This document shows positions 1,794 to 10,276 of a stretch of 10,276 nucleotides of DNA, one piece after another. Both the position numbers and the translations under genes were made by a program. A model generated the notes under the pieces. The model did not search any database. It saw only the letters and a program-made list of their open reading frames with translations, and had not been told where the DNA came from. This DNA is from Deltaproteobacteria bacterium. GTDB lineage: Bacteria; Bdellovibrionota; JACOXK01; 2-02-FULL-40-11. How positions within the stretch are numbered: position 1 is the stretch's first letter; every line of letters starts with the position of its first letter. The stretch covers positions 1 through 10,276 of the forward strand of contig JACPST010000053.1 in NCBI GenBank assembly GCA_016193165.1, in the 5' to 3' direction.

Positions 1794-1843
1794 TAGAAAT
1801 GGGGGCGACATCTATATTTTTAACAAAACAAGAGTCAGGTGAA

Positions 1844-3282
1844 ATGTTAAATACAAAACAAGCCGCCATGTTTTTAGGAGTAAGTACCAAAACAATTTAC
1901 CGAATGGAAGAAAAAGGGTTGATCCATCCTATCAGAACACCAGGGGGACAACGTCGTTTTACAAAGTCCGCCCTTCAACAATATCTTAATAAAAGTCATG
2001 CATTTACCGCCCCCCAAAATCCCAGTAAATTCCTCGTAAAAGAAAATGGTAGCACTTATTCTTTATTCAAGGAAACAGAACTAAAACAAGAAGTCCCAAC
2101 TCGTCAACGAATTGACCATTTAGAGCAAATTGTCTCATTAGGCGCATCTCGAAATCATCAGCAGCATTACGATCAACAAGTTGATCCTAAACGATGGGTT
2201 GAAGAATGGGATTTTAGGACTTATCAGACAAAAACCTATACACACGGATTTCATAATTATCCAGCAATGTTTATTCCGCAAGTCGCACGTAAATTAATCT
2301 TGGCTTTTTCTGAAGAAAATAGTCTCGTCTGTGATATATTTTGTGGCTCTGGAACTACATTAGTGGAAAGTTGCCTACTTAATCGCAATTCTATTGGAAT
2401 TGAACTTAACCCATTAGCGGTTTTAATTGCCCGCGTTAAGACTATACCCATTGACCCAAAAACCTTAACGATTAAGCTTAAGGCTATTTTAAATGACTAT
2501 CAGCAAATTAAGAATATAGAGCCACCAAACTTTGCTAATCTTGGATTCTGGTTCAGTAAGAATGTTATTAGAGATTTGACACGTTTGCGTCAGGCAATAT
2601 GGAATATCTCTGAAGAAAATATCCGTAATTTCTTCTCGGTCTCTTTTAGTGAAGTCGTTCGTGTTGTTTCATTTACACGCCATAACGAATTCAAGCTCTT
2701 CCGCTCGCCAGATAAATTAACAGACAAGTTTAAGCCGGAGGTATTAGGTGAATTTATTAAGATGTGTGAGAATAATATTATTGGAATGAAAGAATACGTC
2801 CACGATGTTTTACCTCATACGAATTCTCGTATTATTATGGGGGATACAACTAAAGATAACGGCATTCCGCATAATTCAGTGGACTTTATTATTACTTCAC
2901 CACCTTATGGCGACAGCCGAACTACCGTAGCTTATGGTCAATTCTCCAGATTATCATCCCAATGGTTGACAAGGATAGGGCTAAAGATGTATTGAGCTTT
3001 TACATAGATTTGAATAAGGCATTAACACAAGCCTATAATATTCTCAAACCAAGAAAATACTTCTGTTTGATTGTTGGCAATCGCACGGTAAAAGAATTAG
3101 TCTTAAAGACTGACACAATTATCTGTGAATTAAGCGAAAAGATAGGATTTACACAGCAGGGAATTCTATACCGCAATATTCCAAATAAACGAATGCCTCT
3201 AAAAAACAGTCCCACAAATGAGACTGGCAAAACTGGTTCTACAATTCTAAGAGAAAGTATTATTTTATTAAGAAAAATTTAA
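1844..3282 (+). pseudogene. HTH–DNA methyltransferase (N4/N6 type) fusion, frameshifted
   Basis: Numbered from the upstream ATG at 1799, residues 17-64 form a MerR/excisionase-type HTH (NTKQAAMFLGVSTKTIYRM, then PGGQRRF). A linker leads to an amino-methyltransferase domain with the AdoMet motif DIFCGSGTT (179-187) and catalytic motif TSPPYGD (366-372). Motif I before IV, about 180 residues apart, suggests the alpha arrangement. Near 2964-2968 the frame breaks: it runs into a stop at 2993-2995, while the rest of the domain (DKDRAKD to SIILLRKI) continues one frame back to 3282. Adding one G in TGGTTGAC restores a protein of about 479 residues from Met at 1844, the preferred start on promoter position and HTH boundary. 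The protein would methylate cytosine N4 or adenine N6; the target is unknown. No restriction endonuclease is adjacent. The HTH suggests self-regulation, as with controller-type modification enzymes, but that is inference. A sequencing error is possible. Confidence 0.85.
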
Positions 3283-6855: not shown

Positions 6856-6858
6856 ATT

Positions 6859-6920
6859 TTAGTGAATATTATAAAAAACTATACTAAATTCACTAAAAAA
6901 TGTCAAATATTAGTGAATTT
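6859..6920 (-). promoter_or_regulatory. Fic promoter with three operator-like repeats
   Basis: On the minus strand TTGACA (6901-6906) and TATAGT (6878-6883) are exactly 17 bp apart. TTAGTGAAT, or its reverse complement, occurs at 6859-6867 (in the leader), 6888-6896 (in the spacer) and 6910-6918 (just upstream of -35). The last two extend to an 11-bp perfect inverted repeat (6886-6896 and 6910-6920). A protein on these sites would block polymerase. The HTH-like tail of the Fic protein is the obvious candidate, by inference. Confidence 0.75.
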
Positions 6921-6924
6921 TATT

Positions 6925-7225
6925 TGGCTCCCCGGACAGGACTCGAACCTGTGACCCGTTGATTACGATCTGACTCCACTTTCATGGAGAGTCGGACTTT
7001 CTCTTTACCCTCGACTAAACGTTAGGGTAATGGGTGTAAAGTCTCTGCACTCCCTCTTTTATAAAAAGAGGTAGCTCAGGATTGCCGTAGCTTTTCAGCT
7101 TTAGGGTTCCCTGACTTAGCCCATTTTTCATCTTAGCATTTCTGCTAAGAGCTGCTAATTCTGCATGAATCTTTCATTCACGCTTCCGGTACAGTCAACT
7201 GCTCTACCAACTGAGCTACCGGGGA
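6925..7225 (-). tRNA. tRNA-Asn(GUU) interrupted by a group I intron
   Basis: The exons are 7191-7225 and 6925-6965. Joined, they give a standard 76-nt tRNA: acceptor TCCCCGG/CCGGGGA all paired, D arm GCTC/GAGC, anticodon arm GTTGA/TCAAC with loop CTGTTAA, short variable loop GGGTC, T arm ACAGG-TTCGAGT-CCTGT, discriminator G73 and an encoded CCA (6925-6927). The loop gives anticodon GUU (Asn), and G73 fits bacterial tRNA-Asn. The intron lies between U35 and U36, inside the anticodon. The gene starts 21 bp after the truncated mglA stop, and its 3' end faces the Fic promoter. Confidence 0.93.
6966..7190 (-). ncRNA. Self-splicing group I intron (IC3-like), 225 nt
   Basis: The intron core contains GGCAATCCTGAGC (7087-7075) and GTGCAGAGACT (7050-7040), the Q/P6 and R/P7 words I know from the tRNA-Leu(UAA) intron of cyanobacteria and plastids. 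The 5' exon ends in U and the intron in G, as group I splicing requires. P1 can form between exon CTGT and GCAG (7164-7161), with U·G at the splice site. Other visible elements are a P2-like hairpin with GAAA loop (7131-7148), AGCT-GAAA-AGCT (P5), CCTCTTTT/AAAAGAGG (P6), TTACCCT/AGGGTAA (P8), ACTTT/AAAGT (P7) and a CTCCA/TGGAG hairpin (P9). There is no homing endonuclease frame. Confidence 0.92.
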
Positions 7226-7246: not shown

Positions 7247-7726
7247 CTAGCCAAAAGGGTTTTCTTTGTCAAGGAATGGAACAGCATTGGCAAGATCGCG
7301 CTTATTATATTGAAGAATATGGGGCAGATTTTTAAATTCATATCCTTGATCTGATAAATTGTTTTTTAAATTTGAAAGGCTTTCTAAATTTTCGTCCATC
7401 CGATGGAGCTGCGAGTCAGCCACAAAAATAATTCCATCGACTCCTTTTAGAATCAGTCTGCGACTGACATCATAATAAGACTGCCCAGGTACCGTATATA
7501 AATGAAACCGCACATTAAATCCTCGAATGGGCCCAATGGCGAGAGGCAAAAAATCAAAAAAAAGAGTCCGTTCGTTTTCGGTAGCCAAGGTCACCATTTT
7601 GCCTTTGGTTTGAGGATTGGTTCTTGCGTAAATATACTGAAGATTGGTGGTTTTCCCACTTAAACCGGGGCCATAGTAGACGACTTTGCAGTTGATCTCT
7701 CGAGTGGCATAGTTCACAAATGACAT
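7247..7726 (-). CDS. mglA: MglA-type Ras-like GTPase, C-terminally truncated
   Basis: From residue 1 the sequence follows Myxococcus MglA closely: Walker A GPGLSGKTT (19-27), the TVPGQ switch II region, LILKGVDGIIFVADSQ and the G4 motif NKRD. MglA is a cytoplasmic polarity and motility switch whose GTP-bound form marks a cell pole and is turned over by MglB. Here the match ends at about KRDLANAVP, followed by nine unmatched residues (FLDKENPFG) and a stop. M. xanthus MglA is 195 residues; this is 159, so the last strand, the G5 region and the final helix are missing. AGGA lies 7 nt before the ATG, and the gene sits 9 nt after recR as the last gene of the dnaX–ebfC–recR unit. The missing end faces the intron-bearing tRNA, which points to a deletion or insertion there. 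It may be non-functional. No mglB is visible. Confidence 0.85.
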   Translation of the reverse strand: MSFVNYATREINCKVVYYGPGLSGKTTNLQYIYARTNPQTKGKMVTLATENERTLFFDFLPLAIGPIRGFNVRFHLYTVPGQSYYDVSRRLILKGVDGIIFVADSQLHRMDENLESLSNLKNNLSDQGYEFKNLPHILQYNKRDLANAVPFLDKENPFG

Positions 7727-7735
7727 AGGGGTATC

Positions 7736-8329
7736 CTACGAAACTACGACTCGATTTTCAATGGCGCTCCCAATTGTCATAACATCAAGATATTCCAAAT
7801 CACCCCCCATAGGAATGCCATGAGCAATACGAGTTAGTTTTAAAGGAAATGGTTTTAAAAGCTTAACCAAATATAAAGCTGTCGTTTCTCCTTCCACCGA
7901 AGAATTGGTAGCCAAAATCACTTCTTGAATTGAAGCATCTTGGAGCCGTCGCAAAAGTTCCTTAATCTTGAGTTGTTCAGGGCCTATCCCTTCTAAAGGC
8001 GAAAGCACTCCATGGAGAACATGATATCTTCCTCGAAACGTTCCAGATTTTTCAATGGCTAAAAGGTCTTGCGGCTCTTCAACAACACATAAAAGAGTTT
8101 TATCCCTTCCCTCATTTTGGCAGAACTGACAGGGATCCGCTTCCGTGAGATTAAAACAGACAGAACATAATCGAATTTTATTTTTTATTTCTAAAATGGC
8201 TTGGGAAAGCGCTTGAGAATACTGGCCCGGAGCTCTTAAAATATAAAAAGCCAAGCGCGCGGCTGTTTTCTCACCAATGCCTGGAAGTTTAGAAAGCTCA
8301 TTGACCAGTTTTGCCAGGGGGTTTTGCAT
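7736..8329 (-). CDS. recR: Recombination mediator protein RecR
   Basis: This is a full-length, 197-residue RecR. An N-terminal helix-hairpin-helix (LSKLPGIGEKTAARLAFYIL) is followed by a four-cysteine zinc finger (CSVC ... CQFC), a TOPRIM domain (LLCVVEEPQDLLAIE and later EVILATNSSVEGETTA) and the C-terminal element TRIAHGIPMGGDLEYLD. RecR acts with RecO, and with RecF at gaps, to load RecA on SSB-coated single-stranded DNA. Its ATG is 3 nt after the ebfC stop, so translation is probably coupled, and dnaX–ebfC–recR is a widely conserved order. Nothing is odd about this copy. Confidence 0.98.
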   Translation of the reverse strand: MQNPLAKLVNELSKLPGIGEKTAARLAFYILRAPGQYSQALSQAILEIKNKIRLCSVCFNLTEADPCQFCQNEGRDKTLLCVVEEPQDLLAIEKSGTFRGRYHVLHGVLSPLEGIGPEQLKIKELLRRLQDASIQEVILATNSSVEGETTALYLVKLLKPFPLKLTRIAHGIPMGGDLEYLDVMTIGSAIENRVVVS

Positions 8330-8332
8330 CTC

Positions 8333-8656
8333 TCAAAGAAGGCCGGGAAGGTTTAATCCTCCTGTGAGTTTTCCGATTTCATTTTGAGCTAATGTTTGCG
8401 ATTGTTTCAATGCCTCATTGGTCGCGGCAACTACTAAACTTTGAAGCATTTCAATATCATTTTGTTTTATAATTTCTGGATCAATCGTCACAGATAAAAT
8501 TTCTTGCCGTCCATTCACTTTCACCGTAACCATTCCTCCTCCACTCGAAGCTTCAATGGTTTTATGTTCTAACTCTTCCTGAATCTTTTTGATCTGCGAT
8601 TGAAATTGCTGGGCTTGTTTAAGCATATTTCCCATATTTCCAAATAGTTTACTCAT
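8333..8656 (-). CDS. ebfC: Nucleoid-associated protein, YbaB/EbfC family
   Basis: The 107-residue product starts MSKLFGNMGNMLKQAQQ, with helical N- and C-terminal parts around the conserved EASSGGGMVTVKVNG strands and DPEI, the standard YbaB/EbfC fold that forms dimers and binds DNA. The ATG at 8656 is chosen over the upstream one at 8692 because it gives the family's usual length and AAAGGA lies about 8 nt upstream. It overlaps the end of dnaX by 8 nt (ATGAGTAA), so the genes are likely translationally coupled. Confidence 0.95.
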   Translation of the reverse strand: MSKLFGNMGNMLKQAQQFQSQIKKIQEELEHKTIEASSGGGMVTVKVNGRQEILSVTIDPEIIKQNDIEMLQSLVVAATNEALKQSQTLAQNEIGKLTGGLNLPGLL

Positions 8657-10276
8657 GAGGACTATCCTTTCTTTTTTCAACCTTAACATCAATCACTTTT
8701 CCATCAAAAACTTTTTGCGCTTCTTGGACGAGTTCATGTTGCATAACCTTTTTTTTGATTTGATCCATCTGCTGTTCATTTTCTTGAACAAGATTGGTGA
8801 GGCTCCCATCACCCTTGGTTGCCATTTCTGTAACAAGGAGCGTCGCCTTGGTATTTAAAAACTCTTGCGCAACTTTTTCAAAAGCCAAGACATTTTCTCG
8901 ATCAGACAAAAGCTTATAAAACACAGAACCCTTGGGAAGGCCTAGCGTAATTTTATGGTCGGCCCACTGAACCAAATAACTATGCTCTAAAAGAGCCGCT
9001 AAGGAGGGTTTTTTGGTTTTAACAAACTCGACCAAAGTACCCCAGTTTTTAGCTCCTAGAGAATGGATAGGAGATGACGATACTGGTGTTACAACGGGCG
9101 CCGAAGATTGCACAGAGACCGATGGAAAAGGGCTTTCTCTCCATGATTTTTGAAGCATTTCTACTTTTTCCAATAAATTTTCAATTGAAATTAAAGGCTT
9201 AAGCTGCAAAAGTTTAATCAGCGTTGTCTCTAACACCATGTGGGGATAAAGCGTCAACGCCATATCTTGACTTCCTTTAAATAGAATATGAAAGGCCTGT
9301 TCCATCTCTTCTAAAGAAAGAAGCCCAGAAAGATCTTTAAGCCGAGAGAGTTCATAATCCGTAAGATTTAAAAAGTTTTCTTTTTCAATAGCTTCAAAAG
9401 AAGAAATTTTGATTAAAAGCAATACCCTGACATACTCTAAAATCTGAGAGGTCAGTTGCTTCATATCTTGGCCTCGTTCATAGATCTCAGATAATAGTTT
9501 TAGTAAGGCGGCTGATTCTTTTTTAAAAGCTTTTTCTAAAAGCTCTAAAACTTTTTCTTCATGTGCTGACCCTAAAATTTCTTGAAGATCTTTGAGCGCC
9601 ACGTTGTTTCCAGAAAAAGAAATGACTTGGTCTAACAGAGAAAGAGCGTCTCGAAAGCTCCCCTGGGCTTCTTTGGCAATTTTTGTTAGCGCCTCTTTTT
9701 CAATCTTGAAGTTTTCTTTCTCCGAAATTCCAGCCAAATGTTGCTCGAGCTGCTTTAACGGAATTTTTTTAAAATCAAATCTTTGGCATCGGGAAAGAAT
9801 GGTCATTGGAATCTTATGCGCCTCAGTTGTCGCAAAAATAAATTTGAGATGAGCCGGAGGTTCTTCTAAAATTTTAAGCAACGCATTAAACGCGCTTTGA
9901 GAAAGCATATGCACTTCATCAATAATATAAACCTTAGTGTGCCCATGGGTGGGGAGATAGTGCGCTCGATCTCTCAATTCTCGAATAGAATCTACACCAT
10001 TATTAGAAGCACCATCAATTTCAATCACAGCTACGGAAATCCCTTTTGAAATTTCCTCGCAGGCAGAACATTGGTTGCAGGATTTGGCCTCTTTAGCTTT
10101 GGCGCAGATCAAAGTTTTAGCTAAAATGCGCGCGGCCGATGTTTTTCCAACACCCCTGGGCCCGCAAAACAAAAATGCATGCGCAATGCGATTTTGAAGG
10201 ATGGCGTTTTTGAGGGTTTGGCTCACGTGCTCTTGCCCTAAGAGTTCCTCAAAATGTTGAGGACGCCATTTTCTAG
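8649..10276 (-). CDS. dnaX: DNA polymerase III subunit tau/gamma (5' end outside window)
   Basis: 541 codons are visible, and the frame runs off the window edge. The first complete residues, RKWRPQHFEELLGQEHV, match the DnaX N-terminus, so only about eight residues are missing and the GTG at 10224-10226 is an internal Val. Seen in order are Walker A GPRGVGKTSAA, the zinc module C-x8-C-x2-C-x2-C (CAKAKEAKSCNQCSAC), Walker B IIDEVHMLS, sensor 1 ATTEAHKIP and the SRC arginine finger (ILSRCQRFDF), then the lid and collar regions and a variable C-terminal part. DnaX is the clamp-loader ATPase and, as tau, links polymerase cores to the replisome. The length of about 550 is in the usual range. A slippery A AAA AAG lies in frame near the 3' end. 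Confidence 0.97.
   Translation of the reverse strand, partial: RKWRPQHFEELLGQEHVSQTLKNAILQNRIAHAFLFCGPRGVGKTSAARILAKTLICAKAKEAKSCNQCSACEEISKGISVAVIEIDGASNNGVDSIRELRDRAHYLPTHGHTKVYIIDEVHMLSQSAFNALLKILEEPPAHLKFIFATTEAHKIPMTILSRCQRFDFKKIPLKQLEQHLAGISEKENFKIEKEALTKIAKEAQGSFRDALSLLDQVISFSGNNVALKDLQEILGSAHEEKVLELLEKAFKKESAALLKLLSEIYERGQDMKQLTSQILEYVRVLLLIKISSFEAIEKENFLNLTDYELSRLKDLSGLLSLEEMEQAFHILFKGSQDMALTLYPHMVLETTLIKLLQLKPLISIENLLEKVEMLQKSWRESPFPSVSVQSSAPVVTPVSSSPIHSLGAKNWGTLVEFVKTKKPSLAALLEHSYLVQWADHKITLGLPKGSVFYKLLSDRENVLAFEKVAQEFLNTKATLLVTEMATKGDGSLTNLVQENEQQMDQIKKKVMQHELVQEAQKVFDGKVIDVKVEKRKDSPHE
8748..8754 (-). promoter_or_regulatory. Possible -1 frameshift or slippage site in dnaX
   Basis: On the minus strand a run of eight A followed by GG places the heptamer A AAA AAG in the zero frame (QIKKKV). 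A -1 shift would add GYAT and stop, removing the last 32 residues. The same heptamer makes gamma in E. coli, but there it lies much earlier in the gene. No strong downstream stem is evident. Confidence 0.3.

Follow-up and report, generated by a model that had tools for sequence, protein, structure and literature searches.

The window, the whole 10,276-nt stretch of DNA analysed here, carries on its minus strand (7225-6925) a tRNA-Asn(GUU) gene that is split by a group I intron inside the anticodon, as the initial annotation had proposed. Our best explanation, to which we assign a probability of roughly 0.9 with all of its parts taken jointly, is that the insert is a ribozyme from a clade of tRNA-Asn introns that spread horizontally and that, in this copy, lost its endonuclease. 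In the precursor, exon CUGU would pair with intron GCAG to form P1, and a guanosine bound in P7 would attack after U35; the freed U35 would then attack after the intron's terminal G, held by P10 (UAAU with AUUA), so that U35 would be joined to U36 and the anticodon GUU restored. The intron would come from a clade found mostly at this one tRNA-Asn bond, spreading horizontally partly or wholly by means of an HNH endonuclease encoded in the P1 loop. The endonuclease gene would have been lost after that spread, making the window copy a later, endonuclease-less stage.

Structure of the interrupted gene

When introns were allowed, ARAGORN reported a 76-nt tRNA-Asn(GUU) with an insertion between positions 35 and 36 in the window, and the joined exons alone were likewise recognised as a 76-nt tRNA-Asn with anticodon GUU. 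In its default mode, without introns, the program found zero tRNAs in the window; carrier genomes can therefore seem to be without an asparagine tRNA. The 5' exon (7191..7225, minus strand, 35 nt) comprises tRNA positions 1-35 and ends in ...GACUGU, and the 3' exon (6925..6965, minus strand, 41 nt) comprises positions 36-76 and starts with UAAUC. Between them lies the intron (6966..7190, minus strand, 225 nt), whose first base is A. The exons are identical, at 35/35 and 41/41 bases, to the uninterrupted tRNA-Asn of two genomes of the same genus (G001 and G002), and the 76/76 identity of the joined exons bears out the earlier description of them as a perfect tRNA-Asn. In both genomes the two parts of the query, bases 1-35 and bases 261-301, are found at 100% identity directly next to each other. 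These empty sites fix the splice sites, further exclude chance and place the terminal base of the intron, a G, at 6966. Neither end base of the intron equals the exon base next to it, so the boundary is unable to slide, and the 225-nt length and the cut between U35 and U36 given in the initial annotation are exact.

A cmscan search of the insert matched the Rfam family RF00028 (Intron_gpI) at 7177-6973 with 86.9 bits (E 1.5e-21; gathering score 50), spanning all model positions (1-253 of 253), and found no other family above its own cut-off. Compared by eye with Leu introns of the same phylum, the core words do show the previously noted likeness to the tRNA-Leu intron; the subgroup, IC3 in the initial annotation, is putative. 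Two other kinds of intron were also considered, the archaeal/eukaryal type, which a splicing endonuclease removes, and group II. The insert does lie in the anticodon loop, the usual site of protein-spliced tRNA introns (PMC4033280, in the part consulted); however, it is 225 nt long, is located inside the anticodon and not 3' of it, contains a P1 guide and P7, and matches RF00028 over its full length and no other family over cut-off. Both kinds were rejected on the full-length match, the P1 guide and P7, and we regard them as scarcely credible.

The tRNA-Asn gene is located downstream of dnaX (8649-10226; Pfam DnaX), ybaB (8333-8692; Pfam YbaB), recR (7736-8329; Pfam RecR) and, directly upstream of the tRNA, a small GTPase gene (7247..7726, minus strand; Pfam Arf) that we take to be MglA-like; the empty sites of relatives are found in the same locus. 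On the recR-mglA side, 1250 bases of the G001 flank match the window at 88%; on the other side, 144 bases, 3' exon included, match at 92%. With orthologous flanks on both sides, the window and G001 represent filled and empty alleles of one locus. The site is thus filled in the window genome (G000) and empty in G001 and G002, with locus orthology seen for G001; G003, G004 and G006 are likewise empty at tRNA-Asn. A DNA query of 97 genomes recovered a 78% identical intron, cut by a contig end, in the tRNA-Asn of G018, which belongs to another family of the same phylum and carries the intron at the same recR-mglA locus. The same query found a partial, related and longer tRNA-Asn intron in G005, a member of the window's family.

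The assembly is fragmented and could in principle contain a chimeric contig in which the intron of a foreign organism or phage had been placed in the tRNA. We rejected this artefact, which we consider extremely improbable, in view of flanks orthologous to G001 on both sides (88% and 92%), related introns at the locus in G018 and G005, and exact exon boundaries.

Two further features of the window were observed. Several copies of TTAGTGAAT/ATTCACTAA, candidate sequences that are perhaps operator sites, occupy 6856-6925, between the tRNA and a Fic-family gene. At 1799-3282, an open reading frame with HTH and DNA methyltransferase similarity overlaps a second one, and the two are possibly a single gene split by a frameshift.

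Related introns at the U35/U36 bond and their pairings

Genome and viral collections were searched with a pattern in which G and AGTC precede the 3' half of tRNA-Asn. Among the matches listed and the other loci gathered, at least 31 distinct complete tRNA-Asn introns were found at U35/U36 (18 cellular and 13 on viral contigs), a position that the pattern itself demanded of all 31. Duplicate views of one place were dropped from this count, as was L282, whose intron is identical to that of L236; the partial introns of G005 and G018 stand outside it, although G018 was included in the tree described below and G005 was not. By ARAGORN, 168 of the 238 matched places were ordinary uninterrupted tRNAs, and the hosts named here are a minimum that does not amount to a sample.

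The cellular hosts include the cyanobacteria Microcoleus and Tychonema, Hormoscilla, an Elusimicrobia bacterium, two Omnitrophota, a Nitrospira, a Patescibacteria bacterium and a betaproteobacterium, as well as two Pacearchaeota (L086 and L108) and two records titled only bacterium. The site is therefore recurrent, occurring in at least six bacterial phyla and in the two Pacearchaeota, and it includes an endonuclease-bearing form. In an RF00028 scan of 144 relatives of the window genome, 14 matched, and six of these (G000, G018, G055, G067, G074 and G078) have introns in tRNA-Asn. The gathering cut-off of RF00028 was reached in 17 of the 20 cellular sources scanned; the other three are L027, which is partial, and L108 and L129, which in another scan gave 78.8 bits and 47.5 bits (below cut-off), respectively. 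It was also reached in 6/13 viral sources, with L330 outside the scan. Three viral introns (L236, L293 and L222) scored 36-45 bits, below the gathering cut-off, and L210, L272, L282 and L303 gave no RF00028 match at E 0.001, even though L304, from which L210 and L272 hardly differ, scores 87.5 bits.

The two Pacearchaeota contigs come from different assemblies and have FtsZ and nitroreductase genes nearby in common, and the L108 contig also encodes TYW3/Taw3, a protein of archaea and eukaryotes. The shared neighbours, the separate assemblies and TYW3/Taw3 together make a bacterial contaminant unlikely. Six of the 13 viral contigs were tested with ten proteins: phage-type matches (tail, DnaB-like helicase, HNH, RIIB, integrase) were found in L212, L229, L304, L293 and L330, and none in L233. 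As the intron-bearing tRNA-Asn of L330 lies beside an integrase gene, it may be a host gene at the edge of a prophage. Three queries run by similarity against named phages returned overlapping lists of 3, 14 and 14 records, and the eight regions inspected (L410-L417) contained no interrupted tRNA-Asn; plasmids gave no match in the similarity search.

Other group I-like elements were encountered during these searches. On the viral contig L293, a weak group I match (2056-2392, 35.9 bits) overlaps a permuted tmRNA match. In Shewanella phage 1/4 (L415), a stretch of some 720 bases upstream of a gene annotated as HNH contains three group I matches. ARAGORN placed introns of 205 and 278 nt in the tRNA-Leu(UAA) of a 735-kb phage (L410, LR756501.1) and of the 490-kb Agrobacterium phage Atu_ph07 (L413), respectively; neither gave an RF00028 match at E 0.001. 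Tychonema (L321, G148) and Microcoleus (L322, G144) each have a further group I intron, located in tRNA-Arg(CCU), and close relatives of the window genome (L059 in G004 and L060 in G001) have tRNA-Met(CAU) introns of about 650 nt.

We then compared the pairings of the window intron with those of the other 30. In the window, the guide GCAG (7152..7155, minus strand) pairs with exon CUGU to form P1, with a U-G pair at the 5' splice site, and the AUUA directly 5' of it (7156..7159, minus strand) makes 4/4 pairs with the 3' exon UAAU (P10). When the 5' region of the window was folded, forcing P1 with a hairpin in its loop cost +0.2 kcal/mol relative to the unconstrained fold. P1 is 4/4 in 31/31 tRNA-Asn introns, all with guide GCAG fitting exon CUGU, but the guide was located by looking for GCAGC just before P2 and the exon half was set by the GUU anticodon and the search pattern. 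Since that pattern demanded a G before UAAYC as well as the GUU anticodon, the terminal G and exon CUGU are partly built in, and the terminal G of introns other than the window's is no test. P10 is 4/4 in five of the 31, including UAAU/AUUA in the window and UAAC/GUUA in Pacearchaeota L108 and Omnitrophota L172, and has no contiguous pair in 11/31. Summed over the 31 introns, P10 amounts to 50 pairs, compared with a letter-shuffled mean of 29.4 (0/2000 shuffled sets as high), a figure that is not an independent count because the introns are related.

A MAFFT alignment of 28 of the 31 cores (leaving out L095, a near copy of L074, as well as L129 and L164) yielded 22 consensus pairs, 13 of them with changes on both sides: six of six pairs in P2, four in P4, two in P5 and one in P7. 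In the window, P2 is a hairpin with a GAAA loop (7132..7149, minus strand), and P4 is formed by a 5' strand at 7109..7114 and a 3' strand at 7081-7076 (minus strand). Five of the six P4 pairs vary with pairing kept, as do both pairs found in P5. P7, the guanosine-binding helix of group I introns (5' strand 7039..7043, 3' strand 6999-6995, minus strand), has four invariant pairs and one that covaries. The Rfam alignment adds a P9 hairpin region (6972..6993, minus strand), together with P3 and P8, which the MAFFT alignment did not recover, probably owing to misalignment of introns that carry an additional domain. The 22 consensus pairs also include three, between columns 1-3 and 142-144, that correspond to no helix of group I introns and are in competition with P1.

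The initial annotation had further suggested that the site was reached by a change of the internal guide sequence. At the same U35/U36 bond, five viral contigs (L194, L205, L243, L276 and L290) carry group I-like introns in tRNA-Lys(UUU) or tRNA-Lys(CUU), with other guides: exon and guide are CUUU/GAAG in the tRNA-Lys(UUU) of L194 and L243 and CUCU/GGAG in the tRNA-Lys(CUU) of L205, and the fit is poorer in the tRNA-Lys(UUU) of L276 and L290 (three pairs, and two G-U pairs). L205 is sister to the viral tRNA-Asn intron L222, with support 95/96. Such changes are what would be expected as compensatory if the guide defines the host. Guides matched to other hosts do exist at this bond, although the viral introns that provide them lie outside the window's clade.

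A pattern search for uninterrupted tRNA-Asn gave no match in 19 of the 20 genomes that carry the intron, of which several are incomplete and 13 are given without a completeness value, and exactly one match in each of five intron-less relatives. A looser pattern, applied to the 20 genomes and two intron-less controls, added one match, in G067, which proved to be no tRNA; a tRNA outside both patterns would escape. The exception, Elusimicrobia G150, has one uninterrupted tRNA-Asn, the only one found there, in an array of 25 closely packed tRNA genes (L329). Among the 19 is the Omnitrophota G154, whose record CP070837.1 (the source of L172) is titled a chromosome. In the window genome (219 contigs, 71.6% complete), a count of tRNA-Asn genes likewise revealed no second one. 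As no other tRNA-Asn was found, the cell should depend on splicing to decode AAC and AAU, and splicing looks essential for asparagine decoding, judging from gene content.

Conversely, the intron could be decayed and unspliced in a tRNA pseudogene, with the cell using another tRNA-Asn that was lost in assembly gaps. At about 72% completeness over 219 contigs, and with 18 tRNA matches over cut-off, below a full set, the genome leaves room for such a gene. The exons, however, are 76/76 identical to the uninterrupted gene of two species of the genus, the core is full length at 86.9 bits, P1 and P10 are intact, and the 19/20 carrier genomes without an uninterrupted copy include the record titled a chromosome. 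An unspliced pseudogene was rejected on the identical exons, full-length core and intact P1/P10, and we judge it very unlikely.

Endonuclease genes and the history of the intron

HNH-type frames are located between the 5' splice site and the guide in G005 (110 residues, running to the contig end), G074 (124 residues) and Nitrospira L142 (123 residues), and a shortened HNH frame is present in Pacearchaeota L108. In G074 and L142 the frame continues through the guide and P2-P4. The Pfam HNH cut-off was passed in one of the four frames (G074), and PHROGs HNH families match the two frames tested, G074 and G005, at E about 1e-30. On L330, a relative 57% identical over query residues 5-118 lies inside a 544-nt intron; among the best 80 of 268 HNH relatives on viral contigs, examined with a crude word search for cores, it alone was recognised as part of a tRNA-Asn intron that has group I core words.

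The window intron has no open reading frame of 60 or more amino acids, and so is without an endonuclease gene of its own. It does contain, inside the P1 extension, a stretch (7160..7175, minus strand) that matches the end of the G005 HNH frame at 13/16 bases. The end of the window leader reads ATT CAT GCA GAA TTA GCA GC, compared with ATT CAT GCT GAA CTA GCA GC in G005, and both encode IHAELA. Matches as good were obtained in 9/2000 shuffles against the 42 bases adjoining the guide and in 78/2000 when the whole HNH segment was the target. The stretch is probably a remnant, the 3' end of the frame of a deleted HNH gene.

A tree of 46 tRNA introns (206 columns) placed the window intron with that of G018 (support 100/98), then with L076 (100/89), and grouped it with Pacearchaeota L108 and L086 and Omnitrophota L172 (97/94). 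A clade with support 99/96 contains all 19 cellular tRNA-Asn rows, three of the 13 viral ones and one tRNA-Gln intron. This last intron, in the tRNA-Gln(CUG) of G093 (L055), is a group I intron that sits within the tRNA-Asn clade next to the cyanobacterial introns (93/80). The tRNA-Asn introns of family f4, which belongs to the window's phylum, fall in a different part of the same clade, and the simplest reading is that tRNA-Asn would have been entered at least twice in that phylum. The other 10 of the 13 viral tRNA-Asn rows are located outside the main clade, among Lys, Met and Leu introns and mostly on weak branches, so more than one arrival at the bond is possible.

If the intron were instead old in the phylum and inherited vertically, its patchy occurrence would reflect repeated loss without mobility. 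A 78% identical intron at the same recR-mglA locus in another family (G018) and a related, longer intron within the window's own family (G005) are consistent with such descent. On the other hand, the f4 introns are located elsewhere in the clade, archaeal and Omnitrophota introns group with that of the window, and several relatives carry HNH genes. Further, the introns of G000 and G018 are more alike (78%) than the RecR (55%) and MglA (59%) proteins of the two genomes, a comparison that is suggestive only. We consider purely vertical descent unlikely, and favour horizontal spread with later loss of the endonuclease gene.

A broader reading would see in these introns a clade of mobile group I introns that crosses domains and is specialised on the tRNA-Asn anticodon. 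Such a clade would (i) move among bacteria, phages and DPANN archaea by means of an HNH endonuclease whose frame extends through the guide into the core, (ii) often rest in the only tRNA-Asn of a genome, and (iii) supply the first cases of group I introns within tRNA genes of archaea; phage introns that are not part of it would have reached the same tRNA-Asn/tRNA-Lys bond by guide changes. Taken jointly, these parts have in our estimate an even chance of being right, lowered by the 10 of 13 viral tRNA-Asn introns that fall outside the clade.

Earlier reports and known systems

The initial annotation had raised the possibility that Asn(GUU) is a new host and site, and we found no earlier report in the open-access literature searched. 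In the parts consulted, Asn(GUU) is not named as a host in PMC8450103, PMC4033280, PMC3984707, PMC5733544, PMC6125680 or PMC11835236. The consulted portions of these and other papers describe fMet and Ile2 introns among bacterial tRNA hosts (PMC8450103), Leu and fMet introns and alpha- and betaproteobacteria (PMC4033280), and Arg(UCU) and Leu(UAA) introns (PMC4853749). Inserts of 22-49 nt have been claimed in Arg, Gly and Lys tRNAs (PMC5733544, as excerpted), which in our view are too short for group I introns. An excerpt of PMC8172020 says, citing a private communication, that tRNAs are particularly invaded by group I introns. As far as the consulted text goes, PMC11835236 mentions tRNA once, with Asn absent from the main text, PMC11270868 concerns rRNA only, and PMC11878797 has tRNA in its references only. 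The mechanism is already known; the host and the site are apparently undescribed.

The intron thereby adds a tRNA host and an insertion bond, U35/U36 inside the anticodon, to the short list for bacterial introns, and the same bond is occupied in at least six bacterial phyla, in two archaeal assemblies and on virus contigs. The guides matched to anticodons at this one bond provide sequence evidence of how introns could switch tRNA hosts.

Group I introns are known from archaea, Pacearchaeota included: in the part of the report consulted, all 39 are located in rRNA genes (Nawrocki et al. 2018, PMC6125680), whereas the two Pacearchaeota contigs described here (L086 and L108) have theirs in tRNA-Asn. 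Similarly, a review states, in the section consulted, that all phage introns known by 2014 were in protein genes despite the many phage tRNA genes (Hausner et al. 2014, PMC3984707); those introns have homing endonucleases in common with the ones described here, but the introns on our viral contigs interrupt tRNA-Asn and tRNA-Lys.

The group I introns of the known bacterial hosts tRNA-fMet, tRNA-Ile2(CAU), tRNA-Arg(CCU) and tRNA-Arg(UCU) likewise lie in or near the anticodon, in different tRNAs and with different guides. Of these, tRNA-Arg(CCU) is interrupted, by ARAGORN, in L321 and L322. The tRNA-Met intron of G004 (L059) encodes not an HNH protein but a relative of PDB 2ost (219 bits), which we take to be I-Ssp6803I of the cyanobacterial tRNA-fMet intron. 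The closest parallel in form is offered by the bacterial and plastid tRNA-Leu(UAA) introns, which belong to subgroup IC3: they too are small ribozymes in the anticodon loop, with like core words, a terminal G and a guide next to P2. The window intron differs from them in its host, Asn(GUU), its bond, U35/U36, and its guide, GCAG, whereas the Leu(UAA) intron L061 of the same phylum is inserted one base earlier, after U34, and has the guide GAG.
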